Of a stretch of 64,000 nt of DNA, positions 42,892-64,000 are shown in pieces. A model generated the notes under the pieces. The model saw nothing but the letters and a program-made list of their open reading frames with translations, searched no databases and was not told the origin of the DNA. Position 1 is the first letter of the stretch. Every line of letters begins with the position of its first letter. Made by a program: the position numbers and the translations under genes. Source of the DNA: Thiohalorhabdus denitrificans (GTDB taxonomy: Bacteria; Pseudomonadota; Gammaproteobacteria; Thiohalorhabdales; Thiohalorhabdaceae); contig NZ_LJCP01000010.1 in assembly GCF_001399755.1 (NCBI RefSeq), positions 124,001-188,000 of the forward strand, read 5' to 3'.

Positions 42892-44147
42892 CCGGCAAGC
42901 CCCCCCTGTTGTTTCTGGCGCACCGGATTCCCTATCCCCCCAACAAGGGGGACAAGATCCGCTCGTTCCATCTGCTGGAGTACCTGAGCCGGTACTACGA
43001 CATCCACCTGGGCGCCTTCGTGGACGATCCGGCCGATTGGAGGTACGCCAAGCAGACGGCCCGGTACTGCGCCGCCACCGAGCTGGTGCCCTTGGGCCGG
43101 GGCCGGGCCCGGCTCCGGAGCCTGAGGGGCCTGATGGCGGGGAGCCCCCTGTCGCTCCCCTTTTACCAGGACCGGCGCATGGACGCCTGGGTTCGCGATA
43201 CGCTCCGCGCGGTGAAGCCGCGGCGGGTGATGGTGTTCTCCTCGGCCATGGCCCAGTACGTGCCGGGGGAACGGACCCCGGAGGCCCGCCGGGTGCTCGA
43301 CATGGTGGATGTGGACTCGGCCAAGTGGGCCCAGTACGGCCGCATGCGGCCAGGCCCCATGGGCTGGATCTTCCGCCGGGAGGGGCGGCGGTTGCTGGAG
43401 CACGAGCGGCGGGCGGCCCTCGACTTCGACGCCACGGTCCTGGTGACCCGGCCGGAGCGGGAGCTTCTCGAGGCGGAGGTCCCCGAGGCCGGGGAACGGC
43501 TTGCCGCTGTGGGCAACGGGGTGGACGTGGAGCATTTCACCCCCGGCGCGGACCTGCGGGATCCGTATCCGAATACGGGGCCGATCCTGGTGTTCACGGG
43601 GGCCATGGACTACTGGGCCAACGTAGACGCGGTGACCTGGTTCGCTGAGGGGGTCTGGCCGGGCATCCGGGAGCGGCTGCCGGCGGCCCGCTTCTTCGTG
43701 GTGGGGGCGCGGCCCACGGACGCCGTGCTGGGGCTGGGGACGCGTCCGGGGATCGAGGTGACCGGAACGGTCCCCGACATCCGGCCCTATCTGGCCCACG
43801 CGGATGCGGCCGTGGCGCCTCTCCGGGTGGCGCGCGGCATCCAGAACAAGGTGCTGGAGGCCATGGCCATGGCCCGGCCGGTGGTGGCCACGGGGGCGGC
43901 CCTGGACGGGCTGGAGGGGCTCGTTGACTACCCCCTGGTGGGGGACGATCCGGAGGCTCTTTGCCAGGCGACCCTGGCGGCCCTCTCCGAGAACCCGCCG
44001 GTGTCGGGCCCCGCACTGCGCGCCTGGGTGGCGGAGCGCTACGCCTGGGAGGCGCACCTGGCCCGCTTCCGGTCCCTGCTAGAGGACGAGCCCGTGGCCG
44101 GCGCCGTGCCGGCGCCGGCGCAGGTGCCGGTGGGGGAGGAAGGATGA
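42888..44147 (+). CDS. Glycosyltransferase, XrtA-associated (stp1 type)
   Basis: A 419-residue GT-B enzyme that begins PPLLFLAHRIPYPPNKGDKIRSFHLLEYLSRYYDIHLGAFVDD, the signature of the first exosortase-A-associated sugar transferase. Later motifs: LDMVDVDSAKWAQY, VGNGVDVEHFTPG, LVFTGAMDYWANVDAVTWFAEGVWP, and a sugar-nucleotide loop RGIQNKVLEAMAMARPVVAT typical of GT4 enzymes. Donor and acceptor are not known. It overlaps the FemAB-like gene and xrtA by four bases each. Confidence 0.9.
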   Translation: MTGKPPLLFLAHRIPYPPNKGDKIRSFHLLEYLSRYYDIHLGAFVDDPADWRYAKQTARYCAATELVPLGRGRARLRSLRGLMAGSPLSLPFYQDRRMDAWVRDTLRAVKPRRVMVFSSAMAQYVPGERTPEARRVLDMVDVDSAKWAQYGRMRPGPMGWIFRREGRRLLEHERRAALDFDATVLVTRPERELLEAEVPEAGERLAAVGNGVDVEHFTPGADLRDPYPNTGPILVFTGAMDYWANVDAVTWFAEGVWPGIRERLPAARFFVVGARPTDAVLGLGTRPGIEVTGTVPDIRPYLAHADAAVAPLRVARGIQNKVLEAMAMARPVVATGAALDGLEGLVDYPLVGDDPEALCQATLAALSENPPVSGPALRAWVAERYAWEAHLARFRSLLEDEPVAGAVPAPAQVPVGEEG

Positions 44148-45718: not shown

Positions 45719-46917
45719 TGGCCGGGGCCGTTCAGGACCGCAGCCCGCCGCTGGTGGCCCACGTGATCCACTCCCTGCGCGTGGGCGGCATGGAGAACGG
45801 CCTGGTGAACCTCATTAACCGGACCCCGGCGGGGGCCCTGCGGCACGTCGTGATCTGCCTGGAGGGGTACTCGGACTTCGCCACCCGCCTCGATCCCGCG
45901 GTGGAGGTTTATGCCCTCCACAAGCACCCGGGGCTGGACGCCGGCCTGTACGGGCGGCTCTGGCGGCTCCTGCGGACGCTGCGGCCGGATCTGGTCCATA
46001 CCCGCAACCTGGCGGCCATCGAGGCCCAGCTGCCGGCGGCCCTGGCGGGGGTCCGGCGGCGGGTGCACGGCGAGCACGGCTGGGACATGGCGGACCTGGG
46101 CGGGGCCAGCCGCCGCTACCGGATGCTGCGGCGGGCGCTGCGCCCCCTGGTCCACCATTTCATCCCTCTGTCCCTGGACCTGGAGGACTACCTGGGCGGG
46201 GCCATCGGGGTGCCGCCGGAACGCATGACCCGCATATGCAACGGCGTGGACGTGGGGCGCTTCCGGCCGGTTGGGGACGGCGGGGCCCTGCGGGGCCGGG
46301 CCGGGTTCCCTCCGGCGGCCCCGGTGATCGGCTGGGTGGGCCGCATGGAGGGGGAGAAGGATCCGCTCGCCCTGGTGCGGGCCTTCATCCGGGTGGCCGG
46401 CGACGAGGAGGAGGGCGAGACAAAGGCGCGGCTGGTCATGCTCGGAGACGGCTCCCTCCGTGGCCAGGCCCGGGAGGAGCTGGAGGCCGCAGGCCTGGCC
46501 CATCGGGCCTGGCTGCCGGGGGAGCGGGCGGATGTGGCGGAGATCCTGCCGGACCTCGACCTGTTCGTGCTCCCCTCTCTGGCGGAGGGCATCTCCAACA
46601 CCGTGTTGGAGGCCATGGCCTGCGGCGTGCCGGTGGTGGCCACCCGGGTGGGTGGCAACCCGGAGCTGATCGTCGACGGCGAGACCGGCGTGCTGGTTCC
46701 CCCCGGCGACCCGCGGGCTCTCGGAGAGGCCCTGGCCGAGGCCCTGGCGGACCCGGACCGGAGGGCCGCCATGGGCCGTGCCTCCCGGGCCCGGGCGGAG
46801 GAGCGTTACAGCATCGAGGCCATGGTGGCGGCCTACCTGGGCGTCTACCGCCGGCTGCTCGGCCAGGGGGCGGGTCCCCTGGCGGGCGGACCCATTCCCG
46901 AAGGAGGAGCACGCTGA
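45718..46917 (+). CDS. Glycosyltransferase, XrtA-associated (stp2 type)
   Basis: A 399-residue GT4-family enzyme with VAHVIHSLRVGGMENGLVNLINRTP at the start, VHTRNLAAIEAQLPAALAGVRRRVHGEHGWDM in the acceptor half, ICNGVDVGRFRP, IGWVGRMEGEKDPLALVRAF and the donor-site segment VLPSLAEGISNTVLEAMACGVPVVATRVGGNPELI. This is the second exosortase-A-associated sugar transferase. Its ATG overlaps the xrtA stop as TGATG, and the amidotransferase begins on its last base. Confidence 0.9.
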   Translation: MAGAVQDRSPPLVAHVIHSLRVGGMENGLVNLINRTPAGALRHVVICLEGYSDFATRLDPAVEVYALHKHPGLDAGLYGRLWRLLRTLRPDLVHTRNLAAIEAQLPAALAGVRRRVHGEHGWDMADLGGASRRYRMLRRALRPLVHHFIPLSLDLEDYLGGAIGVPPERMTRICNGVDVGRFRPVGDGGALRGRAGFPPAAPVIGWVGRMEGEKDPLALVRAFIRVAGDEEEGETKARLVMLGDGSLRGQAREELEAAGLAHRAWLPGERADVAEILPDLDLFVLPSLAEGISNTVLEAMACGVPVVATRVGGNPELIVDGETGVLVPPGDPRALGEALAEALADPDRRAAMGRASRARAEERYSIEAMVAAYLGVYRRLLGQGAGPLAGGPIPEGGAR

Positions 46918-48884
46918 TGTGTGGTCTGGTGGGGCTGTTCGACACGCGGGACACGCGGCCCATGGATCGCGGCCTCGTGGAGGCCATGAACCAACGGCTC
47001 TACCACCGGGGACCGGACGGGGGCGGGGTCCATGTGGAGCCCGGGATCGGCCTCGGCCACCGCCGGTTGGCCATCATCGACCTCGACGGCGGGGACCAGC
47101 CGCTGTTCAGCGAGGACGGAAAGGTGGCGGTGGTCTACAACGGCGAGGTCTACAACTTCCGGGAGCTGGCCGGGGAGCTGCGCGACCGGGGCTACCGGTT
47201 CCGCACCCGGTGCGACACGGAGGTGGTCCTGCAGGCCTGGCGGGAATGGGGACCGAACTGCGTCCACCGGTTCCGGGGGATGTTCGCCCTGGCCATCTGG
47301 GACCGGGACCGGCAAAGCGTGTTTCTGGCCCGGGACCGCATGGGCATCAAGCCCCTGTACTACGCCCTGCTCGATGACGGGACTCTGGCCTTTGCCTCCG
47401 AGCTCAAGGCCCTGCTGCCGCACCCCGGGGTGAGCCGGGACCTGGACCCGGCGGCGGTGGAGGAGTACTTCGCCTTCGGTTATGTGCCGGATCCCCGCAC
47501 CATCCTGAAGGGGGTCCGCAAGCTCCCGCCGGCCCACCGCCTGATGGTGTGCCGGGGGCAGCCCGTCCCCGAGCCGGAGGCCTACTGGGATGTGGCCTTC
47601 GCCGAGGGGGACTCCCGGCCGGCGGAGGACAGCGTGGCGGAAGAGCTCACCGAGAAGCTGTCGGAGGCGGTAGGCATGCGGCGCGTGGCCGATGTGCCCG
47701 TGGGAGCCTTCCTCTCCGGCGGCGTGGACTCCAGCGCGGTGGTGGCCATGCTCGCCCGGGCCGACGATGAGCCGGTGCGGACCTGCTCCATCTCCTTCGG
47801 CGACCCCCGCTACAACGAGGCCGCCCACGCGGCGCGAGTGGCGGAGCGCTACGGCACCGACCATACGGTGTCGGAGGTGGACCCCTCGGATTTCGATCTG
47901 GTGGACCGCCTGGCCGGCATCTACGACGAGCCCTTCGCCGACAGCTCCGCCATGCCCACCTACCGGGTCTGCGAACAGGCCCGGAAGCGGGTGACCGTGG
48001 CTTTGTCCGGGGACGGCGGCGACGAGAGCTTCGGGGGGTACCGGCGCTACCGCTGGCACGTCCACGAGGAGCAGGTCCGGCGGCGCGTACCCCAGGCCCT
48101 GCGCGGTCCCCTGTTCGGGGCACTGGCCCGGGTCTACCCCAAGCTCAACCGTGCGCCCCGCGTCCTGCGGGCCAAGGCCACCCTGGAGTCGGTGGCCCGG
48201 GATAGCCTGGACGCCTACCTGGACAACATGGGGGTGGTGCCGGAGGGCATCCGGCGGGCGATGTTCAGCGACCGGATGCGCCGGGACCTGCAGGGCTATC
48301 ACGCGGTGGAGGTGCTGCGCGGCCACGCCCGCCGGGCCCCGGACCACCCCCTGTCCCAGGTGCAGTACCTGGACATGAAGACCTACCTCCCGGGCGACAT
48401 CCTGACCAAGGTGGACCGGGCCAGCATGGCGCACTCCCTGGAGGTGCGGGTCCCCGTGCTCGACCACGAATTCGTGGAGTGGGCGGCGGCGCTGCCTCCC
48501 CGCTACAAGTACCGCCAGGGGGAGGGCAAATACCTCTTCAAGAAGGCCCTGCGGCCCTATCTTCCGGACGAGGTGCTGTACCGGCCCAAGATGGGGTTCG
48601 CCGTGCCGGTGGATCGGTGGTTCCGCGGGCCCCTGCGGGACCGGGTCCGGGAGGCCCTGCTCGGGCCGGACCTGCAGGACACCGGGCTGTTCGACCGGGC
48701 GGCCCTCGAGCGGATCCTGGAGGAGCACCAGTCCGGGAAGTGGGACCACGGCGCGGTGCTGTGGTCCCTGCTCATGTTCGCGGCCTTTCTGCGGCAGCTG
48801 GACCGGGAGCCGGTGTACCCGGGCGCGGCCCCTGCCGCCGGCCGGCCGCGGCCGGCCGCGAGCCAGCCGGAGTCGTCGCCATGA
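46917..48884 (+). CDS. Amidotransferase, XrtA/PEP-CTERM system (AsnB-like)
   Basis: A 655-residue asparagine-synthase-like enzyme with Cys2 nucleophile (MCGLVGLFDTRDTRPMDRGLVEAMNQRLYHRGPDGGGVH), GHRRLAIIDLDGGDQPL, YNGEVYNF, the PP-loop SGGVDSSAVVAML and LSGDGGDESFGGYRRYRWH. It belongs to the amidotransferase group tied to exosortase A and presumably aminates a sugar acid of the polysaccharide. It differs from the 664-residue homologue at 23 kb. Start overlaps the previous stop (TGATG) and the next gene overlaps by four bases. The 3' end has a GC repeat (GGCCGGCCGCG twice) encoding Arg/Pro/Ala. Confidence 0.92.
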   Translation: MCGLVGLFDTRDTRPMDRGLVEAMNQRLYHRGPDGGGVHVEPGIGLGHRRLAIIDLDGGDQPLFSEDGKVAVVYNGEVYNFRELAGELRDRGYRFRTRCDTEVVLQAWREWGPNCVHRFRGMFALAIWDRDRQSVFLARDRMGIKPLYYALLDDGTLAFASELKALLPHPGVSRDLDPAAVEEYFAFGYVPDPRTILKGVRKLPPAHRLMVCRGQPVPEPEAYWDVAFAEGDSRPAEDSVAEELTEKLSEAVGMRRVADVPVGAFLSGGVDSSAVVAMLARADDEPVRTCSISFGDPRYNEAAHAARVAERYGTDHTVSEVDPSDFDLVDRLAGIYDEPFADSSAMPTYRVCEQARKRVTVALSGDGGDESFGGYRRYRWHVHEEQVRRRVPQALRGPLFGALARVYPKLNRAPRVLRAKATLESVARDSLDAYLDNMGVVPEGIRRAMFSDRMRRDLQGYHAVEVLRGHARRAPDHPLSQVQYLDMKTYLPGDILTKVDRASMAHSLEVRVPVLDHEFVEWAAALPPRYKYRQGEGKYLFKKALRPYLPDEVLYRPKMGFAVPVDRWFRGPLRDRVREALLGPDLQDTGLFDRAALERILEEHQSGKWDHGAVLWSLLMFAAFLRQLDREPVYPGAAPAAGRPRPAASQPESSP

Positions 48885-50050
48885 GGATTCTGTACCACCA
48901 CCGCACCCGCGGGGAGGACGCCCAGGGCGTCCATATCACGGCCCTGTGCCGCGCCTTCGAGGGCCTTGGCCACGAAGTGCGGCTGATGGGTCCGCCCCTG
49001 CCCGCCGGGGGCGGCCGCAGCGACAGCGGCAAGCGGGACAACGCCACCCTGTTGGGTCTGCCCCTGCCGCACTGGCTCTACGAGGTGCTGGCCCTGGGCT
49101 ACAACGTGCCGGCCTTCTTCGCCCTGGCGGCCGCGATCCTGCGGTGGCGCCCGGATTTCGTCTACGAGCGGTACGCCCTGTTCGGGGTGGCCGGGAGGCT
49201 GGCCGCCGGGATATTCCGGGTCCCCTTCATCCTGGAGGTGAATGCCCCGCTCAGCCAGGAGATGAAGGACCACGGTGGCCTGGTCTTCCAGGGCCTAGCC
49301 CGGCGGGTGGAGGACCGGCTGTGCGCCGGAGCCACCCGGACGGTGGTGGTCTCCGCCGCCATGCGGGACCTGTTCGTCCGCCGCGGCCTGCCGGAGGAGC
49401 GGTTCCTGGTGGTGCCCAACGGCGTGGACCGGGAGCGCTTCCATCCCGGCGTGGACGGCGAAGCGGTGCGGCGGGAGCTGGGGCTGGAGGACCGCTTCGT
49501 CATCGGGTTCGTGGGCTGGATCCGGCCCTGGCACGGGGTGCACGACCTGGTGGAGGCCTTCGCCCGCGTCGTGGCGCAACGGAAGGACGCCGCGCTCCTG
49601 CTGGTGGGGGACGGCCCCGCCGTTCCGGAGCTCCGGGCGCGGGCGGCGGAGCTGGGCCTGGCGGACCGGGTGGTGTTCACCGGCGCCGTGGCCCGCGAGG
49701 CGGTGCCCGGCCACGTGGCCGCCATGGACGTGGCGGTCCAGCCCGACGTTACCCCCTACGCCTCGCCGATCAAGCTCTTCGAGTACCTGGCCACCGGCCG
49801 GCCCGTGGTGGCCCCGGACCGGCCCAACATCGCCGAGGTGGTCGGGGATGGCCGGCAGGGCCTGCTGTTCCGACCCGGTAACGTGGAGGAGCTCGCCGCC
49901 CAGCTCACCCGCCTGGCCCTGGATCCCGGACTGCGCAACGCCCTGTCCATGCGCGCCGCCCGCGCCGTGGAAGAGCAGGGGTTCCATTGGGAAGCCAACG
50001 CCCGGCGGGTCCTCGCGGTGGTGGACCGCCACGCCCCGGAGGCCACGTGA
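48881..50050 (+). CDS. Glycosyltransferase, GT4 family
   Basis: A 389-residue GT-B enzyme: MRILYHHRTRGEDAQGVHITALCRAFEGLGHEV at the start, FVYERYALFGVAGRLAAGIFRVPFILEVNAPL in the middle, VVPNGVDRERFHPGV, IGFVGWIRPWHGVHDLVEAFARV, and the donor loop YASPIKLFEYLATGRPVVAPDRPNIAEVV. It is similar to exosortase-A-associated group 1 transferases. It is coupled to both neighbours by four-base and one-base overlaps. Confidence 0.88.
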   Translation: MRILYHHRTRGEDAQGVHITALCRAFEGLGHEVRLMGPPLPAGGGRSDSGKRDNATLLGLPLPHWLYEVLALGYNVPAFFALAAAILRWRPDFVYERYALFGVAGRLAAGIFRVPFILEVNAPLSQEMKDHGGLVFQGLARRVEDRLCAGATRTVVVSAAMRDLFVRRGLPEERFLVVPNGVDRERFHPGVDGEAVRRELGLEDRFVIGFVGWIRPWHGVHDLVEAFARVVAQRKDAALLLVGDGPAVPELRARAAELGLADRVVFTGAVAREAVPGHVAAMDVAVQPDVTPYASPIKLFEYLATGRPVVAPDRPNIAEVVGDGRQGLLFRPGNVEELAAQLTRLALDPGLRNALSMRAARAVEEQGFHWEANARRVLAVVDRHAPEAT

Positions 50051-51327
50051 TGCTGCTGGAGCGCAGCCGACCGGTGCGGAGCGAGGGCGGGGCCGACGCG
50101 CCCGGCCCCTCCGGGGAGGGGCCTCGCGTGGTGGTTCTCAGCCAGCTGTTTCCCCACGCGGGGGACCCGGGGGCCGGGCTGTTCATCCGCGAGCGCATGT
50201 TCCGGGTGGCCCGGCACCTGCCCATGGTGGTGGTCAGCCCCGTGCCCTGGTTCCCCTTCCAGGGGGCGATCCGCCGCTTCCGGCCGCATTTCCGGCCGCC
50301 AAGGCCGAGCGACGAGTGGCAGGACGGGGTGCAGGTCCTGTTCCCCCGCTATTTCTCGGTGCCCGGCGTCGCCAAGAGTCTGGACGGCCTGTTCCAGGCC
50401 CTGGGCGCCTTCCGCACGGTCCGTCGCCTGCGGCGGGAGTGGGGCGGCGAGGTCCTCGACGCCCACTTCGCCTATCCCGACGGCTACGCGGCGGGCTGGC
50501 TGGGCCGTTGGCTGGGTATGCCGGTGACGGTGACCCTACGCGGGACCGAACCGCCCCTGACCCGTTCCCCCGTGGGGCGGGTCCTGCTGCGCGGGGCCAT
50601 GAAGCGCAGCCATCGGGTATTCGCGGTGTCCGCCTCCCTCCGGGCGCTGGCGGAGGATATGGGAGCGCCGGCCGGCCGTACCCGGGTGATCCCCAACGGG
50701 GTGGACGCGGAGAAGTTCCGGCCCGAGGACCGGAGCCGGGCCCGCCGGGACCTGGGAATCCCGGAGGAGGCCCCGGTCCTGATTTCGGTGGGCGCGCTGG
50801 TGGAGCGCAAGGGGTTCCACCGGGTGCTGGAGGTGCTGCCGGCACTGCGGGAGGCCCATCCCGGGCTGCAATACCTCATCGTCGGCGGCCCGGGTCCGGA
50901 GGGGGACCTCGGGGCCTACCTCGAGGAGCGGACGCGGCAGCTGGGTCTGGAGGACACGGTCCGCTTCCTCGGCCCGCTGCCGCCGGAGCGGCTGCGCGGG
51001 CCGCTATCCGCCGCCGACCTGTTCGTGCTGGCCACCAGCCACGAGGGGTGGGCCAACGTCTTCCTGGAGGCCATGGCCTGCGGGCTGCCCGTGGTGACCA
51101 CGGACGTGGGCGGCAACCGGGAGGTGGTCTCCCGACGGGAGGTGGGGCGCATCGTGCCCTTCGGGGACCCGGAGGAACTGCGGAGCCAATTGGAGGAGGC
51201 CCTGGGGACCACCTGGGACCGGGGGATGATCCGGGCGTACGCCGAGCGCAACGGCTGGGAGGACCGGGTTGCCATGCTGGTGGAGGAATTCCGAGAGGTG
51301 GCGGCGCCGGTGGAGGAGGGGAGCTGA
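50050..51327 (+). CDS. Glycosyltransferase, GT4 family
   Basis: A 425-residue GT-B enzyme. Motifs: VVVLSQLFPHAGDPGAGLFIRERMFRVARHLP, DAHFAYPDGYAAGWLGRWLGMPVTVTLRGTE, VIPNGVDAEKFRPED, ISVGALVERKGFHRVLEVLPAL, and LATSHEGWANVFLEAMACGLPVVTTDVGGNREVV. The E-x7-E donor motif is intact (EGWANVFLE). Substrates unknown. ATG overlaps the previous stop as TGATG; the sulfotransferase starts on its last base. Confidence 0.88.
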   Translation: MLLERSRPVRSEGGADAPGPSGEGPRVVVLSQLFPHAGDPGAGLFIRERMFRVARHLPMVVVSPVPWFPFQGAIRRFRPHFRPPRPSDEWQDGVQVLFPRYFSVPGVAKSLDGLFQALGAFRTVRRLRREWGGEVLDAHFAYPDGYAAGWLGRWLGMPVTVTLRGTEPPLTRSPVGRVLLRGAMKRSHRVFAVSASLRALAEDMGAPAGRTRVIPNGVDAEKFRPEDRSRARRDLGIPEEAPVLISVGALVERKGFHRVLEVLPALREAHPGLQYLIVGGPGPEGDLGAYLEERTRQLGLEDTVRFLGPLPPERLRGPLSAADLFVLATSHEGWANVFLEAMACGLPVVTTDVGGNREVVSRREVGRIVPFGDPEELRSQLEEALGTTWDRGMIRAYAERNGWEDRVAMLVEEFREVAAPVEEGS

Positions 51328-52175
51328 TGGCCTTTCCACCGGACCTGTTCCTGATCGGGGCGCCGAAGGCCGGGACCACGACGCTGGCGGAGGTCCTGGA
51401 CAGCCATCCGGAGATCAGCCTGTCGCGGCCCAAGGAACCCCATTTCCTCACCCAGAACCGGGAGCTGGGGCTGGAGTGGTACCGGGAGTGCTTCGACGGC
51501 CCGGAGGATCGGGTGCTGCTGGATGCCTCCACCAGCTACTCGACGGATCCCCTGGGCACGCTGGGGCGGGATACGCCCCTGGCCGGGGTCCCCGAGCGGC
51601 TGCACGAGTTGAGCCCGGAAGCGCGGTTGATCTACGTGGTCCGGGAGCCGGTGGCCCGCAGCTATTCCGCCTACTGGCACGACGTACGCCTGGGCTACGA
51701 GCGCCTGCCCTTCCGGGAGGCCATCGCTCAGGACCCGATGTACCTGGCGGCCAGCGACTACGCGGGACAGCTGGAACGGTACCTGCCGTACTTCCCCCTG
51801 GAGCGGATCCTCATCGTGCGCGCCGAGGATCTGTGGCGGGATGCCCAAGGGGTGGCGGGGGAATGCTTCGATTTCATCGGCGTGCCCCGGGTGGCGGAGG
51901 AGGACCTGCCCGCGCTGCACAAGAACCGGTCCTACACCTTCAACGGGGTGGGCCGCTATCTGTACCGCATCCTCCAGGACGACCGCAGTCTGAAGCGGGC
52001 TGCGAATCTGGCGAGGCGGGTCATGCCGGAATCTGCCTACCGCGCCGTCGGCAGGGCGCTGACGAAGGAGATCCCGCCCCTGGATAGCGGGCACCGGGAG
52101 GAGCTGGAAGCGTGGTTCGCGCCGAAGAACCGGAGGTTTAGGGAGCTCACGGGGATCGGCATCGGGCAAGAGTAG
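51327..52175 (+). CDS. PAPS-dependent sulfotransferase
   Basis: A 282-residue sulfotransferase. The 5'-phosphosulfate loop is FLIGAPKAGTTTLAEVL (about residues 8-24) and the 3'-phosphate-binding motif is VVREPVARSYSAYWHDV; ALHKNRSYTFNGVGRYLYRIL and RRVMPESAYRAVGRAL follow. It resembles heparan-sulfate-type O/N-sulfotransferases, so the exopolysaccharide may be sulfated. The acceptor is inferred from context. It ends the run of genes joined by overlaps; the flippase follows after 66 bases. Confidence 0.87.
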   Translation: MAFPPDLFLIGAPKAGTTTLAEVLDSHPEISLSRPKEPHFLTQNRELGLEWYRECFDGPEDRVLLDASTSYSTDPLGTLGRDTPLAGVPERLHELSPEARLIYVVREPVARSYSAYWHDVRLGYERLPFREAIAQDPMYLAASDYAGQLERYLPYFPLERILIVRAEDLWRDAQGVAGECFDFIGVPRVAEEDLPALHKNRSYTFNGVGRYLYRILQDDRSLKRAANLARRVMPESAYRAVGRALTKEIPPLDSGHREELEAWFAPKNRRFRELTGIGIGQE

Positions 52176-56218: not shown

Positions 56219-57406
56219 ATGAGAATCCTGGTCCTGGCCGACGAGCTTCCCTATCCGCTCTCCCACGGCCAGCGTCTGCGCATCTTCAACTACGTCCGGT
56301 CCCTGTCCGGGAGGCACCACTTCGATCTCCTGTGTCTGGACGACCGGCCCCTTCCGGAGCCCCTGGAACGCCTCTTCGGGCGGATCGAGATCCTGCCCCG
56401 GGAGGATCCGGCACGGGGCGGGAGGCGAGGGTGGTGGAAGAGCCTGTCGCTGGAGGAGATGGTCCCGGAGGACGGCCGGGTCACCGAGCGCCTGGAGGGC
56501 CTCCTGGCGGAAATCGATTACGACTTGATCTGGATGACCGGGGAGAGGGTGATTCCCAGTGTCCCCTTCGGCCGGGTACCTGTCCTAATGGACCTGGTAG
56601 ACGACGTGGTGCTCACCCTGCTGCGCGAGGCCAAAAGCCAGGTACCCATGCGACGGCGCCTCCAGGCGCTCAAGCGGGCCTTCATGCATTACCGCTTCGA
56701 GCGCCGGTACTACGGCCAGGGGGATGCCTGCTTGGTGGTGGCGGAGCCCGACGCGGAGATGTTCGGCCGTATCTGTCCGTGGGTCCCGGTGCGGGTGGTG
56801 AAGAACGGCGTGGACGCCGAGTATTTCGCCCCGCATGGGCAGGAGCCGGAGGATCCGGTGCTGGTATTCGAGGGAAACATGTCCTTTCCGCCCAATGTGG
56901 ACGCCGTCCGGTACTTCGTGAACCGGGTGCTGCCGCGCATCCGTGAGCGGGTCCCCAAGGCCCTCTTCCGGGTGGTGGGGAAGGACCCGGCGGAGGAGGT
57001 GCGCGCGCTGCAGGGGCCGGGGGTGGAGGTGACCGGATTCGTGGAGGATCTGCGCCCCTACCTCCGCGGGGGCGCGGTCTTCGTGTCCCCCCTGCGCAAG
57101 GGCGCGGGCATCAAGAACAAGATCCTCCAGGCCTGGGCCATGGGGCGACCGGTGGTGGGTACCCGGTTGAGCTTCGGCGGCCTCCAGGTACGGGAGGGCA
57201 GGAACGCGGTGGTGGCCGACGGCCCGCAGGAGATGACCGAGGCGGTGGTGCGCCTGCTTCGGGCTCCGGAGGAGCGCGCGGCGCTCGGCCGGGGAGGGCG
57301 GGAGACGGTGGTGGAGCACTACACCTGGGAGCAGAAGGCCCGGGAGCTCGAGGCCCTGATGCTGGAGACCGCGGCCAAGCACGGAGAGCGAAGCGCCTAT
57401 GCGTGA
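56219..57406 (+). CDS. Glycosyltransferase, XrtA-associated
   Basis: A 395-residue transferase resembling the stp1 type: MRILVLADELPYPLSHGQRLRIFNYVRSLSGRHHFDLLCLDD, LMDLVDDVVLTLLREAK, VVKNGVDAEYFAPHG, VLVFEGNMSFPPNVDAVRYFVNRVLPRIRERVP and SPLRKGAGIKNKILQAWAMGRPVVGT. It is a second copy of the same subfamily as the enzyme at 42.9 kb. GGGGAGG lies at ideal spacing before the ATG. The ligase gene overlaps its end by eight bases. Confidence 0.88.
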   Translation: MRILVLADELPYPLSHGQRLRIFNYVRSLSGRHHFDLLCLDDRPLPEPLERLFGRIEILPREDPARGGRRGWWKSLSLEEMVPEDGRVTERLEGLLAEIDYDLIWMTGERVIPSVPFGRVPVLMDLVDDVVLTLLREAKSQVPMRRRLQALKRAFMHYRFERRYYGQGDACLVVAEPDAEMFGRICPWVPVRVVKNGVDAEYFAPHGQEPEDPVLVFEGNMSFPPNVDAVRYFVNRVLPRIRERVPKALFRVVGKDPAEEVRALQGPGVEVTGFVEDLRPYLRGGAVFVSPLRKGAGIKNKILQAWAMGRPVVGTRLSFGGLQVREGRNAVVADGPQEMTEAVVRLLRAPEERAALGRGGRETVVEHYTWEQKARELEALMLETAAKHGERSAYA

Positions 57407-58748
57407 TGCAGCCCTACTGGTCATTTTCGCCAGCCTCATCCCCTTCGTTCTGGTGCGTCCCTGGACGGGGGTGCTGGTCTGGTCCTGGGTCGGCTTCATG
57501 AACCCCCACCGCCTGGGCTGGGGGGTTGCCCAGGACCTCCCCGTGGCCCTGGTCTTCGGCTCCCTCACGCTGGTGGCCATGTGGCTGCATTCGGATCGCA
57601 AGCCCATTCCCCTCACCCGGGAGACGGTGCTGATCATCCTCCTGATGATCGTGTTCACCATCACCACCTTCACGGCCTGGGTGCCGGAGGCCGCGTGGCC
57701 TCAATGGGAGAAGGTGATGAAGATCCTGGCCTTCGCCCTGGTCACCACCATGCTCATCTACGGGAGGAAGCGCATCCTGGCCCTGCTGGTGGTAGTGGCC
57801 GGCTCGTTGGCCTTCTACGGGGTCAAGGGGGCGGCGTTTGTGGCCAGCACCGGGGGCCAGTACCGGGTCAAAGGGCCCGAACCCTCCTTCATCGGCGCCA
57901 ACACCGCCCTGGGGCTGGCCCTGCTCATGGTCCTTCCCCTGCTGGTGGCCCTGGCCCGGGAGGTGGATAGCACGTGGGGGCGGCGCGCCATCTACGGGGT
58001 GGTGGTCCTCACCGTGATCGCCACGCTGTTCACCTATTCCCGCGGGGCGCTGTTGGGTCTGGCCGTGGTGCTGCCGATCATGCTGATCAAGGCCAACCGG
58101 AAGTTCCTGCTCTTTCTGCTCCTGATCCCTGCGGCCTACAAGGCGCCGGACTTCATTCCCGAGCGGCTTATGGAGCGGGCCGAGAGCATCGAACAGTATG
58201 AGGAAGACCGCTCGGCCATGCAGCGGATCCAGGCCTGGCAGGTGGGCTGGAACGTGGCCCTGGAGCGGCCCTGGTTGGGCGCCGGGTTCAAGCTGGAGGA
58301 GGCCCCGAACGCCCTGTGGCTGGATTACGCGGAATGGCAGGACGAGCATTTCAACCGGTCCCGGGCCGCGCACTCCAACTACTTCCAGATGCTTGGCGAG
58401 CACGGCTTCCTGGGCACGGCCCTCTACCTCCTGCTCCTGTTCTTCACCTTCGGCAGCCTGCGAAGGATCAAGAAACAGGCCCCCGGGGTGGGTCTGGGCT
58501 GGATGGTGAAGTACGCCGACGCCCTGCAGACGGGCCTCATCGCCTACGCCGTGGCGGGGGCCTTCCTGAGCCTGGCCTACTTCGACCTCTTCTATACCTT
58601 CGTCATCCTCGCCGCCATCATGCGCCGGGAGATCGCCGAAGCCACCGAAAAGGTGGCCGCGCACGCCTCCGATGTACGGGGCCCGTTGTCCCGGGCCCCG
58701 GCCCGCGCCGCGACCCCCGTGCCGGCCCAGATGCCGCGCGGGGTGTGA
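57399..58748 (+). CDS. O-antigen-ligase-like protein, exosortase A-associated
   Basis: A 449-residue protein with about ten to twelve membrane helices and a large periplasmic loop containing WQVGWNVALERPWLGAGFKLEEAPNALWLDYAEW and RAAHSNYFQMLGEHGFLGTALYLLLL, the signature of the Wzy/WaaL O-antigen ligase superfamily (PWLGxG, HSxYFxxLxExGxxG). The first residues (LVIFASLIPFVLVRPWTGVLVWSWVGFMNPHRLGWG) match the putative O-glycosylation ligases found with exosortase A, which may join glycans to PEP-CTERM proteins. A role as polymerase is the alternative. It overlaps the upstream transferase by eight bases. Confidence 0.9.
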   Translation: MRDAALLVIFASLIPFVLVRPWTGVLVWSWVGFMNPHRLGWGVAQDLPVALVFGSLTLVAMWLHSDRKPIPLTRETVLIILLMIVFTITTFTAWVPEAAWPQWEKVMKILAFALVTTMLIYGRKRILALLVVVAGSLAFYGVKGAAFVASTGGQYRVKGPEPSFIGANTALGLALLMVLPLLVALAREVDSTWGRRAIYGVVVLTVIATLFTYSRGALLGLAVVLPIMLIKANRKFLLFLLLIPAAYKAPDFIPERLMERAESIEQYEEDRSAMQRIQAWQVGWNVALERPWLGAGFKLEEAPNALWLDYAEWQDEHFNRSRAAHSNYFQMLGEHGFLGTALYLLLLFFTFGSLRRIKKQAPGVGLGWMVKYADALQTGLIAYAVAGAFLSLAYFDLFYTFVILAAIMRREIAEATEKVAAHASDVRGPLSRAPARAATPVPAQMPRGV

Positions 58749-58749
58749 G

Positions 58750-59763
58750 TTGGAAGGCGCCGCTGCCCTCGGCCTGCGCGGCATGGCCGCCATGCTCTCC
58801 CCGGGCGGGGGCCGGGGCCGGCTCGGGGTGCTCATCTATCACCGGGTGCTCGAAGAGGCCGATCCCCTGGACCCCGATATCCCGGACGCCGCGACCTTTG
58901 ACTGGCAGATGGGTCTGCTGGCGGAGGAGTTCCGGCCCCTGCCGCTCGCCGAGGGCGTGGCGGGTCTGGCCCGGGGGACGCTACCGCCACGGGCGGTGGC
59001 CGTGACCTTCGACGACGGCTACGCGGACAACTACACGGTGGCCCTGCCCATCCTGCGCAGGTGGGGGGTGCCCGCGACCTTTTTCATCGCCACCGGCTAC
59101 CTCGGCGGCGGGCGGATGTGGAACGACATAATCACCGAAACGGTCCGTCGCTGGCCGGAGGGGGAGATGGATCTGCGCCATATGGGCCTGGGCCGCTGGC
59201 CCCTGGATGGGGAGGAAGCCCGCCGCGAGGCCCGCATGGGTCTGATCCAGGAGCTCCGCTACCGCCCCCTGGAGGAACGAGAGCGAGTCGTCGAGGGGCT
59301 CGGCGCGGAGCTGGGCGGGCCGCCATCCCCGCGCCTCATGCTGGATCCCGGCGAGGTCCGGGCCCTGGCGGGGGCCGGCATGGAGATCGGCGCCCATACA
59401 CGCAGCCATCCCATTCTTTCCACCCTGGACCCCGACCGCGCCCGCGCGGAGGTGGCGGAGAGCAAGGCCCACCTGGAGGAGATCACGGGGGGGGCATGCC
59501 GGTTTTTCGCCTATCCCAACGGCCGGCCCGGTGAGGACTACGGTCCGGAGCACGTGGATCTGGTGCGCGCCGCGGGCTTCCAGGCCGCGGTTTCCACCGC
59601 CTGGGGGGCTGCAGGCCGGGAGACGAGCCGCTTCCAGATTCCCCGCTTCACACCCTGGAACGGGACCCCCCGAGGGTTCTACCTGGGGCTCCTGCGCAAT
59701 CTGTTACGGGGCCGCGGTCCCCGGGCGGGGGACACGCGGGAGACACTGGCGGAGCACGCCTGA
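58750..59763 (+). CDS. Polysaccharide deacetylase family protein
   Basis: A 337-residue NodB-fold protein of a different subtype from the one at 41 kb: LGVLIYHRVLEEADPLDPDIPDAATFDWQM, VAVTFDDGYADNYTVALPILRRWGVPATFFIATGYLGGGRMWNDII, MEIGAHTRSHPILSTLD and FFAYPNGRPGEDYG. The FDDG aspartates and H-x4-H metal site (HTRSHP) are intact. The start is uncertain: TTG 58750 follows the ligase stop directly, ATG 58783 is eleven codons later. It probably trims acetyl groups from the polysaccharide. Confidence 0.85.
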   Translation: MEGAAALGLRGMAAMLSPGGGRGRLGVLIYHRVLEEADPLDPDIPDAATFDWQMGLLAEEFRPLPLAEGVAGLARGTLPPRAVAVTFDDGYADNYTVALPILRRWGVPATFFIATGYLGGGRMWNDIITETVRRWPEGEMDLRHMGLGRWPLDGEEARREARMGLIQELRYRPLEERERVVEGLGAELGGPPSPRLMLDPGEVRALAGAGMEIGAHTRSHPILSTLDPDRARAEVAESKAHLEEITGGACRFFAYPNGRPGEDYGPEHVDLVRAAGFQAAVSTAWGAAGRETSRFQIPRFTPWNGTPRGFYLGLLRNLLRGRGPRAGDTRETLAEHA

Positions 59764-59788: not shown

Positions 59789-60547
59789 ATGCTGCGCAAG
59801 GTGGGAACCATTCGCCGACAGATGGGGGCACGGGAGGGGGGACTGTACCTCCTGGCCCGTTTCCTCGACCGGGCCAGCGGTGGCCGGGCCGGGCTGTACC
59901 GCTACCACCTCTTCTGGCAGCCGGTTCCCCGGGATCCCCTCCTGCCTCCCGGCAAGGGCACCCGGATCGCAGTGCGTCCCGTCGGCGCCGATGACGCGGC
60001 CCTGGAACGGATGCCCCGGCCCCGGGAGGTGCTGCAGCGTCGCATGGACTCGGGGGACCGGTGCCTGGGCGCCTTCCTGGGCGAGGAGCTGGTAGGTTTT
60101 CTCTGGTACGCCGAGGACCTATACCGCGAGGACGAGGCCCGCTGCACCTATCGCCTGCCTCCCGGTGGGGTGGCGGCCTGGGACTACGACGTCTACATCG
60201 ATCCCCGCCGCCGTCTGAGCCCCGTTTTTGCCCGGCTCTGGGACGAGGCGGCCGCCCGTTTCCGCGCCACCGGTGTGCAGGGAACCTTCAGCCGCATCTC
60301 CGCCTTCAACACCCCCTCCCTGGCCTCCCAGTACCGCCTGGGGGGTCGGAAATGGGGCACGGTAACCTTCCTCCGGCTGGGGAATTGGCAGCTGGCCTTC
60401 TCCAGCCTCGCCCCCCGCCTCCACCTCAGCCGAAGGGCGGAGCCGGTGTACCGGATGACCATACCCGAGGCCGACGATCCGGCCTCTTACGGCCTGGGCA
60501 AGGGGCAGGGCCGGCCGGCCCCGCCCCCCGCCGATCAGAGGGAATAG
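59789..60547 (+). CDS. GNAT-family acetyltransferase
   Basis: A 252-residue protein with a GNAT fold: GTRIAVRPVGADDAALERM, CLGAFLGEELVGFLWYAED (strands before motif A), AAWDYDVYIDPRRRLSPVFARLWDEAAARFRATGVQGTF (acetyl-CoA region) and SRISAFNTPSLASQYRLGGRKWGTVTFLRLG. About 55 residues precede the fold. GGGGAAGG lies before the ATG. The acceptor is unknown, but with two deacetylases nearby a role in acetylating a sugar amine is plausible. Its 3' end overlaps the convergent TPR gene by 13 bases. Confidence 0.75.
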   Translation: MLRKVGTIRRQMGAREGGLYLLARFLDRASGGRAGLYRYHLFWQPVPRDPLLPPGKGTRIAVRPVGADDAALERMPRPREVLQRRMDSGDRCLGAFLGEELVGFLWYAEDLYREDEARCTYRLPPGGVAAWDYDVYIDPRRRLSPVFARLWDEAAARFRATGVQGTFSRISAFNTPSLASQYRLGGRKWGTVTFLRLGNWQLAFSSLAPRLHLSRRAEPVYRMTIPEADDPASYGLGKGQGRPAPPPADQRE

Positions 60548-61254
60548 CCCGCCTCGGCGAGCTTCTCGCGCAGGCCGGGCAGGGGATAGCCTTCCTCGTA
60601 AGCCCGGCGTGCAGCCTCGCGGGCCTTTTCATACTTTTCCAGATCCAGGTAGGCCAGGCCCAGGTTGTACCAGGCCTCGGGGAATTCCTCCTGGATATCC
60701 AGGGCTTCCCGGTATTTATCGACCGCCGTCTCGGACTTTTCCAGGCGGTGCAGGTAGATCCCGTACAGGAGCCGGATCTCGGGGTCCTCGGGCGTGAAGG
60801 CCGCCGCCCGTTGCAGGAAGCACTCCGGCGGGGGGCTGGCGGAGAACTGGGCATGGCTGGTCCATTCCTCCCCGTCCTCCCCGGTGTGGAGCCGGATCAT
60901 GGCGTACAGGGCCTTGTGGTGGTTGGGGAAGGCCATGAGGGTGTAATGCAGGTCCCCAATGGGGGTCTGGCTGTTCTCCCCACCGGCCAGGGTCTGGACC
61001 TGGTTGGTGAAGTGGAAGTCCTCCACCCGTTTAAGAGTGGGGTCCGAGGAGCTGTACTTGCGGTAGTCGTAGGGCCCGTACCCCTGCTCGGTCCCGTCGA
61101 AGCTGGAGCAGGCCCGTCCATCAAGGGACTCGCCGATATACGGCGCCTTTCCGTCCTGGGCGTGAGCCACTGCGGGGAGGACGGAAAGCGTCACGAGAAG
61201 CAGGAAAAGGGCAGCCCGGTCGGTTATGGGAGGAAAAGGGGTCGTAAAAGCCAT
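60535..61254 (-). CDS. Secreted TPR-repeat protein
   Basis: A 239-residue exported protein with signal peptide (TDRAALFLLLVTLSVLPAVAHAQ) and then GKAPYIGESLDGRACSSFDGTEQGYGPYDYR, FHFTNQVQTLAGG, DLHYTLMAFPNHHKALYAMIRLH, an ECFLQRAAAFTPEDPEIRLLYGIYLHRLEKSETAVDKYREAL segment and TPR units (YNLGLAYLDLEKYEKAREAARRAYEEG). Similar proteins with this N-terminal cysteine-containing part accompany exosortase A loci. GAGG lies eight bases before the ATG; an upstream in-frame ATG is less good. It is the only minus-strand gene in this part and converges on the GNAT gene. Confidence 0.78.
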   Translation of the reverse strand: MAFTTPFPPITDRAALFLLLVTLSVLPAVAHAQDGKAPYIGESLDGRACSSFDGTEQGYGPYDYRKYSSSDPTLKRVEDFHFTNQVQTLAGGENSQTPIGDLHYTLMAFPNHHKALYAMIRLHTGEDGEEWTSHAQFSASPPPECFLQRAAAFTPEDPEIRLLYGIYLHRLEKSETAVDKYREALDIQEEFPEAWYNLGLAYLDLEKYEKAREAARRAYEEGYPLPGLREKLAEAGYSL

Positions 61255-61665
61255 GCTGGAAACCTCTGGATGGGCGGGTCCGCTTTCTGAAATGGTCAAG
61301 GCGCTCATCCCATCCTAACCGCCAGGTCCGTCCCGGACAGGGACCATATCCCAAAAAACCGGGTTACTTGACGCGGATCAGCAGGAAGGTCCGGGAATAC
61401 CGGTTTTCCCCTGTCGTTGTTGCCCGGTTCGTGCGTTGTTGCTTTCCAATTCCCGGACTGCCCCTGCGGCGAAGCGGTATTTTGCGGGTGCTCTTGACCC
61501 CATCGGGATGCGGACCTTGGAACCGGGGGAGGCGGGTACTAGCTTGATCCGATGATGCCTGCGCGGGTGCCAGCTTTCCGCCCGGGCCGGGTCCCCGGGG
61601 TCGGCCGGGAGGCGGCTTCGGGTAGAGGGTTCCGACAAGAGGTTTACCGGTACGGGGAGAACGGC
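61255..61665. other. 411-base divergent intergenic region
   Basis: Non-coding gap between the minus-strand TPR gene and the plus-strand ACP gene. It holds the direct repeat CGTTGTTGC at 61415-61423 and 61434-61442 (19-base period), and GGGAA pairing with TTCCC around 61394-61410. TTGACC near 61494 and TACTAG near 61538 are promoter-like hexamers with no good partner. No gene was found; a long minus-strand frame across it is unsupported. Confidence 0.4.
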
Positions 61666-61911
61666 ATGGCGAGCGTGGAGGAAGTACGGCAGGTGGTCGG
61701 CGATGTCCTCCAGCTGGGGGAGCGAACCGCGGCCCTGGAGCGGGAGACCCCGCTGATCGGGAACATCCCCGAATTCGATTCCATGGCGGTGGTCTCGGTG
61801 GTCACCTCCCTGGAGGATCAGTTCGGGGTGGTCATCGAGGACGACGAGATCTCGGCGGAGACCTTCGAGACCGTGGGCAGCCTCGTGGATTTCGTGAACA
61901 GCAAGCTCTAG
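61666..61911 (+). CDS. Acyl carrier protein, exosortase A-associated
   Basis: An 81-residue ACP-like protein: MASVEEVRQVVGDVLQLGER, then IPEFDSMAVVSVVTSLEDQFGVVIEDDEISAETFETVGSLVDFV. Ser39 in the DSM motif is the 4'-phosphopantetheine site. GGGGAGA lies at good spacing before the ATG; the longer open frame upstream is not ACP-like. It is followed by two hydrolase genes and a PLP-decarboxylase gene, the usual company of the exosortase A-associated acyl-activation set; the matching AMP ligase should lie just outside. The carried group is unknown, possibly an amino acid. Confidence 0.88.
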   Translation: MASVEEVRQVVGDVLQLGERTAALERETPLIGNIPEFDSMAVVSVVTSLEDQFGVVIEDDEISAETFETVGSLVDFVNSKL

Positions 61912-61919
61912 GCGCGGGC

Positions 61920-62774
61920 ATGGTGACCCCATTCTTTCTGGACAGCGCGGGAGGCCGAATTCACTGCACGGTCTTCCACCCCTCCGACCCCACGTCCGCG
62001 ACACCGGGCTTGGTGTTCCTGCCGCCCTGGGCGGAGGAGGCCAACAAGGCCCGCCGGATGATGGCCCGCCTCGGGCATTCGTTAGCTGGCGCCGGCTTCC
62101 GGACCCTGGTCCCGGATTTCTACGGCACGGGGGACAGCGAGGGGGATTTCGCCGAAGCCCGGTGGGAGCTTTGGAAAAACAACGCACGGGATGCCCGCGA
62201 CTGGTTGAGGGACCGGGAGACAGGGCCCGTGTATCTGGGGGGCCTGCGCCTGGGCGGCCTGATCGCCGCGGAGACCGCCCGTGAGCTTGCCGAGCCCCCG
62301 CCGGGACTGCTCCTGTGGAGCCCGATCATAAACGGGCGGCAGACCCTCCGGCAGTTCCTGCGCCTGCGCCTGGCGGCGGGCCTGGGGGTCGGAGGGGACA
62401 CGCCGCAGGAGCGCACCGCGGACCTCCTGGGGCGCCTGGAGGCCGGGGAAAGCCTGGAGGTCGCCGGCTACGAGCTGCATCCCGGCCTGGCCGGGGCCCT
62501 GGACGCCCGCTCTCTCCAGGGGCTGCTTCCTTCGCCGGAAACGGAGGTGATCTGGCTGGACGTGGTTTCGGGCCCGGAGGCAGGCCCACCACCGGCCTCC
62601 CGCAGCGTGGTGGAGGCCTGGCGGGAGCAGGGCAGGTCGGTCCGCCACCAGGGGGTCCCTGGGGACCCCTTCTGGGCAACGCAGGAGCTGGTGGATGCGC
62701 CCGCCCTGGTGGAAGCCTCCGCGGGGTTCCTGGAGCGCCTGGAAGATGCCGAAGTCTCCGGCCATGCCCCCTGA
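61920..62774 (+). CDS. Hydrolase 2, exosortase A system-associated
   Basis: A 284-residue alpha/beta-hydrolase-fold protein: FFLDSAGGRIHCTVFHPSD, GLVFLPPWAEEANKARRMMARLGHSLAGAGFRTLVPDFYGTGDSEGDFAEARWELW and VYLGGLRLGGLIAAETARE. At the nucleophile elbow, where serine hydrolases have GxSxG, this protein has G-L-Arg110-L-G, so the classic catalytic serine is missing. The PPWAEE and GTGDSEGDF segments match the exosortase-associated hydrolase 2 family. It may be non-catalytic or use another residue. It starts eight bases after the ACP gene. Confidence 0.87.
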   Translation: MVTPFFLDSAGGRIHCTVFHPSDPTSATPGLVFLPPWAEEANKARRMMARLGHSLAGAGFRTLVPDFYGTGDSEGDFAEARWELWKNNARDARDWLRDRETGPVYLGGLRLGGLIAAETARELAEPPPGLLLWSPIINGRQTLRQFLRLRLAAGLGVGGDTPQERTADLLGRLEAGESLEVAGYELHPGLAGALDARSLQGLLPSPETEVIWLDVVSGPEAGPPPASRSVVEAWREQGRSVRHQGVPGDPFWATQELVDAPALVEASAGFLERLEDAEVSGHAP

Positions 62775-63615
62775 ACGGCCCTTCGCCTTCGAATGCGCCA
62801 GCCACACCCTGTGCGGCATCCTGCACCCGCCGGCCGCGCCCTCGGCGGCCCGTGGGGTGCTGGTGGTCGTGGGAGGCCCCCAGTACCGGGTTGGCAGCCA
62901 TCGCCAGTTCGTGCTCCTGGCCCGCCACCTGGCCGAGCAGGGGATCCCGGTGCTGCGCTTCGATTACCGCGGCATGGGGGACAGCGAGGGCCGGCTCCAC
63001 GAATTCGCGGAGATCGAGTCCGACATCCGGGCCGCCGTGGACGCCTTCTTCGAACGTTGGCCGGACCTGGAAGAGGTGGTCCTGTGGGGGCTCTGCGACG
63101 CCGCCTCGGCGGCGGCCTTCTACGGTTTTCAGGACAGCCGGGTCGCGGGGCTGGTGCTGCTCAACCCCTGGGTGCGAACCGAGGCCGGCGAGGCGAGGAC
63201 CCGCCTCAAGCACTATTACCTGGCCCGGCTGACGGAGCCCGCCTTCTGGAAGAAGGTCCTGACGTTGCGCTGGGAGCCTCGGCGTTCTCTCGGCCATGCG
63301 CTGGCTGCCTTGCGGACGCTCGGTGGCCGGGAGAGGGTGGGCCCGGCGGAGGACTGGCGGCAGATGCCCTTGCCGCAGCGGATGCTCCACGGGCTGGAGC
63401 GCTTCCCGCGGCCGGTCCTCCTGATCCTCAGCGGCCGGGACCTGACGGCCCGGGAGTTCGAGGACACGGTGGCCGCCTCCAAGGGGTGGCGGCGCTGGCA
63501 GGGGAGCCCGCGGGTGGATACCCGGCGGCTGGAGGAGGCGGACCATACCTTCTCCCGCCGGGTCTGGCGCGAGCAGGTGGAGACGCACACCGCGGACTGG
63601 CTCCGCTCCTGGTGA
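62764..63615 (+). CDS. Hydrolase 1, exosortase A system-associated
   Basis: A 283-residue alpha/beta hydrolase: ERPFAFECASHTLCGILHPP, GVLVVVGGPQYRVGSHRQFVLLARHLAEQGIPVLRFDYRGMGDSEG, VVLWGLCDAASAAAFYG, LILSGRDLTAREFED and EEADHTFSRRVWRE. The nucleophile elbow reads G-L-Cys111-D-A, with cysteine instead of serine; an aspartate (GRDLT) and a histidine (ADHTF) complete a possible Cys-Asp-His triad. The VVGGPQYRVGSHRQF block is diagnostic for the family. ATG 62764 overlaps hydrolase 2 by 11 bases; ATG 62746 is an alternative. Confidence 0.87.
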   Translation: MPPERPFAFECASHTLCGILHPPAAPSAARGVLVVVGGPQYRVGSHRQFVLLARHLAEQGIPVLRFDYRGMGDSEGRLHEFAEIESDIRAAVDAFFERWPDLEEVVLWGLCDAASAAAFYGFQDSRVAGLVLLNPWVRTEAGEARTRLKHYYLARLTEPAFWKKVLTLRWEPRRSLGHALAALRTLGGRERVGPAEDWRQMPLPQRMLHGLERFPRPVLLILSGRDLTAREFEDTVAASKGWRRWQGSPRVDTRRLEEADHTFSRRVWREQVETHTADWLRSW

Positions 63616-63642
63616 AGGCGCGGCCGCGGGGAAGGGCAGGAC

Positions 63643-64000
63643 CTACACCAGGACCTCTTCCGGGGGCGGGTGGCCGAGGAAGCGGTGCGGGCTGGCGCTG
63701 TAGCCGTAGGCGCCCGACTGGAGCACGGCCACCAGGTCGCCCTCCTCGGCCCGGCCCATCTCGACCCGGTCCGCCAGCAGATCCAGGGGGGTGCACAGCG
63801 GGCCCACCACGCTCACCGTTTCCCGGGGCCCGTCGTGGACCCGGCGCGGGGTGACCACCGGGTAGTTCTTCCGGATCACCTGGCCGAAGTTCCCCGAGGC
63901 GGCGAGGTGGTGGTGGAGTCCGCCGTCGGTGACCAGGAAGGTGTGGCCGCGGGATACCTTGCGGTCGAGCACCCGGCAGGCGTAGACGCCGGCCTCTCCC
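63643..64000 (-). CDS. PLP-dependent decarboxylase, exosortase A-associated (C-terminal part)
   Basis: The last 118 codons of a fold-III (alanine racemase-like) decarboxylase; the start lies beyond base 64000. Visible: GEAGVYACRVLDRKVSRGHTFLVTDGGLHHHLAASGNFGQV, VVGPLCTPLDLLADRVEM, GDLVAVLQSGAYGYSASPHRFLGHPPPEEVLV. The GPLCTPLD and SGAYGYSASPHRFLGHP segments belong to the C-terminal barrel with the active-site cysteine of diaminopimelate/ornithine-type decarboxylases, in the branch regularly placed next to the exosortase-A ACP and hydrolases. It is transcribed toward hydrolase 1, with a 27-base gap. It may supply a decarboxylated amino acid for the carrier protein. Confidence 0.87.
   Translation of the reverse strand, partial: GEAGVYACRVLDRKVSRGHTFLVTDGGLHHHLAASGNFGQVIRKNYPVVTPRRVHDGPRETVSVVGPLCTPLDLLADRVEMGRAEEGDLVAVLQSGAYGYSASPHRFLGHPPPEEVLV

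Follow-up and report, generated by a model that had tools for sequence, protein, structure and literature searches.

In Thiohalorhabdus denitrificans, an acyl carrier protein (ACP), two alpha/beta-hydrolases, a decarboxylase that depends on pyridoxal phosphate (PLP), and an AMP-forming ligase are encoded together. We hold with moderate confidence that this module makes beta-alanyl-S-ACP from L-aspartate and that the two hydrolases pass the beta-alanyl group to an envelope polymer. The stretch of DNA that we analyzed (the window) is 64,000 nucleotides long and corresponds to C10:124001-188000 of the 2.87 Mb genome, where C10 is contig NZ_LJCP01000010.1. Coordinates that begin with C10 are contig positions, and the others are positions in the window. 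Families were assigned by matches to NCBIfam (TIGR) and Pfam profiles, judged against the curated cut-offs. The module comprises:

61666-61911, plus strand: ACP (PF00550, 27.1 bits against a cut-off of 20.8)
61920-62774, plus strand: hydrolase 2, with an alpha/beta-hydrolase fold (TIGR03101, 250 bits against 203)
62764-63615, plus strand: hydrolase 1, an alpha/beta-hydrolase (TIGR03100, 350 bits against 168)
63643-64000 in the window, minus strand, with the whole gene at C10:187643-188878: PLP decarboxylase (TIGR03099, 610 bits against 478)
C10:188875-190464, outside the window, minus strand: AMP-forming ligase (TIGR03098, 746 bits against 592)

The proteins assigned to TIGR03098, TIGR03099, TIGR03100, and TIGR03101 all exceed the curated NCBIfam cut-offs, and these matches are far beyond chance. 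This confirms the initial annotation, which was made from the window alone and recognized an ACP, two hydrolases, and a PLP decarboxylase at 61666-64000. The window contains just the C-terminal 119 codons of the decarboxylase (including the stop); the 5' part lies beyond position 64000. The initial annotation also predicted an AMP-forming ligase in the sequence beyond 64000 and named the lack of an adjacent ligase as an argument against its proposal. The ligase is present and adjoins the decarboxylase, so that case did not occur, and the idea of amino-acid activation on a carrier is supported. The end of the ligase gene overlaps the start of the decarboxylase gene by 4 nucleotides, and the last 11 nucleotides of the hydrolase 2 gene are shared with the start of hydrolase 1. 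The ACP and hydrolase genes are convergent with the decarboxylase gene. The phosphopantetheine serine of the ACP lies in the motif IPEFDSMAV and is a serine in 79/79 aligned ACPs; the best solved relative of the ACP is 2lki (E = 9e-24).

The closest characterized relative of the ligase that we found is AfcQ, at about 52% identity. AfcQ is a VinN-type enzyme from Burkholderia (the AFC-BC11 system) which activates L-aspartate and does not activate beta-alanine (PMC12186527). FlvN likewise accepts aspartate (PMC11284099). When we compared the A4-A5 region of the ligase to solved structures, VinN was the only match with E < 1e-8. D219, Y220, S287, and R319 of the ligase align with positions 246, 247, 315, and 347 of the VinN chain, which correspond to D230, F231, S299, and R331 after subtracting a constant offset of 16. 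In VinN, D230 binds the beta-amino group, F231 and S299 are bulky residues that face a loop, and R331 lies in the loop (PMC11253843). Arg311 of AfcQ has been equated with Arg331 of VinN and was proposed to bind the alpha-carboxylate (PMC12186527). The aspartate (D219), the arginine (R319), and the catalytic lysine are each invariant in 43-44 of the 44 ligases that we aligned. The position of Y220 is more variable (Tyr in 39/44 and Ala in 4/44, as also in AfcQ), and a minority of the family has Ala or Thr at the counterparts of F231 and S299 (Y220 and S287 here). We rejected 3-methylaspartate as the substrate: the E subunit of glutamate mutase was not found in 26 genomes that carry the module, so aspartate is favored over 3-methylaspartate.

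The AfcQ gene itself is very probably in locus L133 from B. cenocepacia. The spacing between the arginine and the lysine in that protein is 192 residues, which equals the published spacing in AfcQ (311-503), with an uncertainty of one residue (the assembly has a frameshift in the gene), and its C-terminal 366 amino acids are 52% identical to our ligase. We rejected another B. cenocepacia locus (L039, on a 3.2 Mb replicon) as the afc cluster, as the spacing is 191 and the neighbors include ketoacyl-ACP synthase (KAS) III and LuxI/LuxR genes. The ligase and the decarboxylase in L039 are 49% and 54% identical to those of the module, and the cluster encodes several KAS III-like proteins, acyl-CoA dehydrogenases, and a GNAT protein besides LuxI/LuxR. 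One other locus (L115) contains two ligase-decarboxylase pairs.

The decarboxylase is an AR-fold PLP enzyme, and its PLP lysine (Lys70) is present in 45/45 decarboxylases. Among solved structures, the enzyme scores best against BtrK, the L-glutamyl-[BtrI ACP] decarboxylase (274 bits, versus 168 for the next entry). The TIGR03099 family has the motif CTPLD where BtrK has CTPED and where LysA proteins from the same sample of genomes have CE[TS]xD. In a phylogenetic tree, the TIGR03099 decarboxylases are separated from the LysA clade with support of 100/100; the position of BtrK in the tree is unsure because of its long branch. Given the motif and the separate clade, we rejected a LysA-type role in lysine or polyamine metabolism. 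In the AFC-BC11 system, AfcP decarboxylates aspartate that is tethered to the carrier AfcK, and the product in vitro is beta-Ala-S-AfcK (PMC12186527). PLP-dependent decarboxylation of a carrier-bound acid needs a free alpha-carboxyl group, which is provided if the amino acid is loaded by its side chain. By analogy to these systems, aspartate is most likely loaded by its side chain and then decarboxylated on the ACP, in which case beta-alanyl-S-ACP, an activated acyl donor, would be produced instead of a free amine. The initial annotation had proposed that a decarboxylated amino acid is made: the decarboxylation holds up, and the free amine does not seem to be the likelier product.

The route that we favor, based on the characterized relatives, would run from L-aspartate via Asp-S-ACP to beta-alanyl-S-ACP. 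The ligase would convert the side-chain (beta) carboxyl of L-aspartate to an AMP ester and load it onto the ACP, and the decarboxylase would remove the alpha-carboxyl from the tethered residue to give the beta-alanyl thioester. Hydrolase 1, paired with hydrolase 2, would then move the acyl group from the ACP to the envelope polymer of the locus. We hypothesize that the acceptor is a polysaccharide. In the simplest case, the acyl group would be accepted by amines that polysaccharide deacetylases expose (the second deacetylase of the locus, described below, included), and the outcome would be a beta-alanylated, cationic exopolysaccharide.

The hydrolases differ in their catalytic residues. In hydrolase 1, the usual serine nucleophile is replaced by cysteine, and Cys111, Asp226, and His261 are invariant in 81/81 proteins. 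Hydrolase 1 is thus a Cys-His-Asp enzyme. In hydrolase 2, Arg110 occupies the position of the nucleophile and Phe251-Trp252 occupies the position of the histidine. These replacements are themselves invariant (78/78 proteins), which suggests function rather than decay. Hydrolase 2 is probably a pseudo-hydrolase that acts as a non-catalytic partner. The AlphaFold2 model of hydrolase 1 has a mean pLDDT of 84.7, and its Foldseek matches are alpha/beta-hydrolases, esterases, and lipases. These matches include GrgF (6lzh), another cysteine-using enzyme, which joins acyl chains; we view it as a lead only. In one locus (L017), a FeeM/LuxI-like acyltransferase (PF13444; L017:14263-15255) is encoded directly 3' of hydrolase 1.

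The module lies in an exosortase A locus, 16-18 kb downstream of the exosortase gene. Besides an XrtA polysaccharide deacetylase and tyrosine kinase, chain-length, flippase, and glycosyltransferase genes, this locus contains:

41800-42891, plus strand: FemAB-like XrtA-system protein (TIGR03019)
43961-45718, plus strand: exosortase A (XrtA, TIGR03109) with an EpsI domain
46236-48884, plus strand: XrtA amidotransferase (TIGR03108), which begins MCG and so has Cys2; the match starts at codon 228 of the open reading frame
57399-58748, plus strand: O-antigen-ligase-like protein, exosortase A associated (TIGR03097)
58672-59763, plus strand: second polysaccharide deacetylase (PF01522), which adjoins the GNAT gene
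59789-60547, plus strand: GNAT-fold protein, a candidate acyltransferase without a Pfam or NCBIfam match
60535-61308, minus strand: TPR protein, between the GNAT gene and the ACP gene

To see how the module relates to the exosortase, we examined 274 genomes that sample the class evenly. (The p-values are just a guide, because genomes are not independent data points.) XrtA was found in 50 genomes, the decarboxylase in 32, and both in 19 (odds ratio 9.9, p = 2e-8). Hydrolase 1 was present in all 19 of the XrtA genomes with the decarboxylase and in 0/31 of those without it (p = 3e-14), and we found none in 40 decarboxylase-free genomes that we searched. This pattern spans many families. XrtA did not exceed the cut-off in 13 of the 32 decarboxylase genomes, and 3 of these 13 have hydrolase 1. 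The FemAB-like protein, which the initial annotation had suggested as a user of the product, accompanies XrtA in 19/19 genomes that have the decarboxylase and in 26/31 that do not (p = 0.14). In other words, it tracks the exosortase locus (45/50 XrtA genomes) and not the module, and we rejected it as the dedicated transferase.

In species genomes, relatives of hydrolase 1 are found in 491 stretches. For neighborhood counts, we collected 80 named loci by hydrolase 1. The ACP adjoins hydrolase 1 in 78/80 of these loci, as does hydrolase 2 (78/80), and the ligase and the decarboxylase are encoded within 10 kb in 43-44 of the 80. The TPR protein is kept beside the module in several genomes, and a relative is present in 25/80 loci.

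The ligase, the decarboxylase, and the ACP are also found together in polysaccharide loci on pSymB of Sinorhizobium meliloti, in Aureimonas, and on Rhizobium plasmids, where they are surrounded by genes for glycosyltransferases, a deacetylase, and an O-antigen ligase. We found neither an exosortase nor hydrolases 1 and 2 in these loci. Thus, the set does recur with exosortase A, as the initial annotation stated, but it is not tied to it. The exosortase-free loci also suggest that the product belongs to polysaccharide biology and not to protein sorting. A more speculative possibility is that, in the minority of XrtA genomes that carry the module, exosortase A uses amines of the modified polymer as its acceptor nucleophile.

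Several points weigh against our proposal. The substrate assignment depends on relatives outside TIGR03098-03101, and AfcP is just 26% identical to the decarboxylase of this locus. The homology to BtrK would fit the conversion of glutamate to gamma-aminobutyric acid (GABA) equally well. The nearest solved folds of hydrolase 1 are esterases, and transfer rather than hydrolysis by this protein is purely our hypothesis. In the Sinorhizobium-type loci, which lack hydrolases 1 and 2, another enzyme must perform the transfer. Finally, among published polymer structures, we found none that contains beta-alanine and stems from a locus of this type. We consider the substrate assignment to be firm enough for immediate assay.

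Other candidates for the last step are the GNAT protein at 59789-60547, an acyltransferase of family PF13480 which is encoded between the ligase and the decarboxylase in two loci (L023 and L025), and a homolog of asparagine synthetase. The GNAT fold is supported by the AlphaFold2 model and Foldseek. Homologs of this protein were found in module genomes only (7 of about 33 carriers, and 0/31 XrtA genomes without the decarboxylase); with just 7 carriers, we rejected it as a universal transferase. The protein that is encoded upstream of the Sinorhizobium ligase has no Pfam match and looks GNAT-like by eye only, and it has no detectable relationship to the GNAT protein at 59789-60547. A beta-helix protein (cluster 4) that is encoded beside some modules was rejected because it is a polysaccharide-locus protein and is not module-specific.

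The asparagine synthetase homolog raises another possibility. It is encoded two genes upstream of the ligase:

L002:11357-13342, which is C10:191357-193342: asparagine-synthetase homolog, in which Gln replaces Cys2

About 20 relatives that are encoded near hydrolase 1 or the decarboxylase have also lost Cys2 but have kept the ATP loop (SGG[TL]DS). These appear to form a family of amide-forming enzymes with a dead glutaminase, tied to some of the module loci; the loss of Cys2 suggests that the amine used by the homolog is not ammonia. This enzyme could couple the amine of beta-alanyl-S-ACP, or of freed beta-alanine, to a carboxylate, for instance that of a uronic acid. This is the closest alternative to the uronic-acid amide of the initial annotation. 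In about 25/80 loci, no more than 10 kb separates the homolog from hydrolase 1, but it is near just 5 of about 30 decarboxylase loci, and the activated carboxyl on the ACP would be superfluous if the amine reacts. We consider this explanation unlikely.

Alternatively, the module might follow butirosin biosynthesis (BtrI, BtrJ, and BtrK), with L-glutamate attached through its side chain and then decarboxylated to give GABA-S-ACP. BtrK is the nearest relative of the decarboxylase in the PDB, and the two share CTPxD (PMC7857480). The ligase points elsewhere: it resembles VinN and AfcQ, and these enzymes take aspartate or methylaspartate. (BtrJ is not known to share the adenylating fold of VinN and AfcQ.) A glutamate substrate thus seems rather improbable.

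The beta-alanyl-ACP might instead be used to build a small secreted or signaling metabolite, as in AFC-BC11 or the macrolactams, with no decoration of a polymer. Every characterized relative serves small molecules, and the FeeM/LuxI-like acyltransferase right after hydrolase 1 in L017 and the KAS III and LuxI/LuxR genes of L039 would fit this view. But near the module in this locus, we saw no KAS, polyketide synthase, or condensation enzyme. The neighbors are instead glycosyltransferase, flippase, polymerase-like, and deacetylase genes, and this is so in exosortase-free genomes as well. We doubt that the product is a small metabolite.

It is very unlikely that the module merely replaces PanD, with hydrolase 1 releasing free beta-alanine for pantothenate and CoA: although PanD is missing from 20/32 module carriers versus 74/242 non-carriers in the 274-genome sample (p ~ 6e-4, with taxonomy and other routes to beta-alanine uncontrolled), it is present in this genome (C10:461827-462168) and in a genus mate, several of the carriers without PanD also lack hydrolase 1, and polysaccharide loci are where the module genes are found. 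In three families that are represented by one carrier and one non-carrier, the two differ in PanD, and each time it is the carrier that lacks it. The pattern may stem from taxonomy, or the module may have a second role and help to supply beta-alanine.

The chemistry that we propose for beta-alanyl-S-ACP is of a known kind. AfcQ-AfcK-AfcP has the same parts, namely a stand-alone VinN-type adenylating enzyme with the same specificity Arg and Asp, a carrier, and a PLP decarboxylase, but it belongs to a lipopeptide cluster without hydrolases 1 and 2 or an exosortase (PMC12186527). VinN-VinL-VinO (vicenistatin) and FlvN (fluvirucin) likewise combine a ligase, a free-standing ACP, and a PLP decarboxylase (PMC11284099). 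In VinN-type systems, the thioester is formed before decarboxylation, and the D230, S299, and R331 pocket is common to the module's ligase. Unlike the module, they supply starter units to a polyketide synthase, and VinN depends on a glutamate mutase, absent here, for its 3-methylaspartate. In BtrK-BtrI, which includes the nearest solved decarboxylase, the amino acid is also tethered to the carrier by its side chain, but the substrate is glutamate and the pathway makes an aminoglycoside (PMC7857480). What has not been described in the literature that we searched is the use of such a module in exopolysaccharide loci, or the pair of a Cys-hydrolase and a pseudo-hydrolase.

A broader interpretation is that these loci encode a dedicated system for aminoacylating exopolysaccharides in Gram-negative bacteria, in which beta-alanine is made on a carrier and moved by a Cys-hydrolase/pseudo-hydrolase heterodimer onto the amines of the polymer. 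We put this forward tentatively, as a possibility that is somewhat less likely than not to hold in full. If it is true, the matrix would carry flexible primary amines, as a counterpart of teichoic-acid D-alanylation. In that (Dlt) system, an adenylating ligase and a carrier protein deliver aminoacyl groups to teichoic acids. The module resembles Dlt in outline only, and we do not claim membership: its residue would be activated by the side chain and decarboxylated, and we identified no membrane acyltransferase step.

TIGR03098-03101 are named as "hypothetical equivalogs" without a function, and we found no paper that ties the module to one. The link to AfcQ/VinN and BtrK supplies a candidate substrate and intermediate and the sequence in which the steps would occur. 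For a widespread and long-unexplained gene set, this predicts chemistry that is open to assay with purified proteins. The names in NCBIfam imply a tie to exosortase A, but the ligase-decarboxylase pair also occurs without an exosortase. The module is thereby set apart from protein sorting, and pSymB of Sinorhizobium could serve as an exosortase-free genetic model. Also, the hydrolase pair is a target for finding a new acyl-transfer or release enzyme, as hydrolase 1 tracks the module fully in XrtA genomes. If the acceptor is a polysaccharide, the module would explain charge modification in bacteria that form flocs and biofilms.

A sulfotransferase domain (PF00685) is encoded within the exosortase locus at 49848-52175, and there is a sulfotransferase gene near the Sinorhizobium module locus too.

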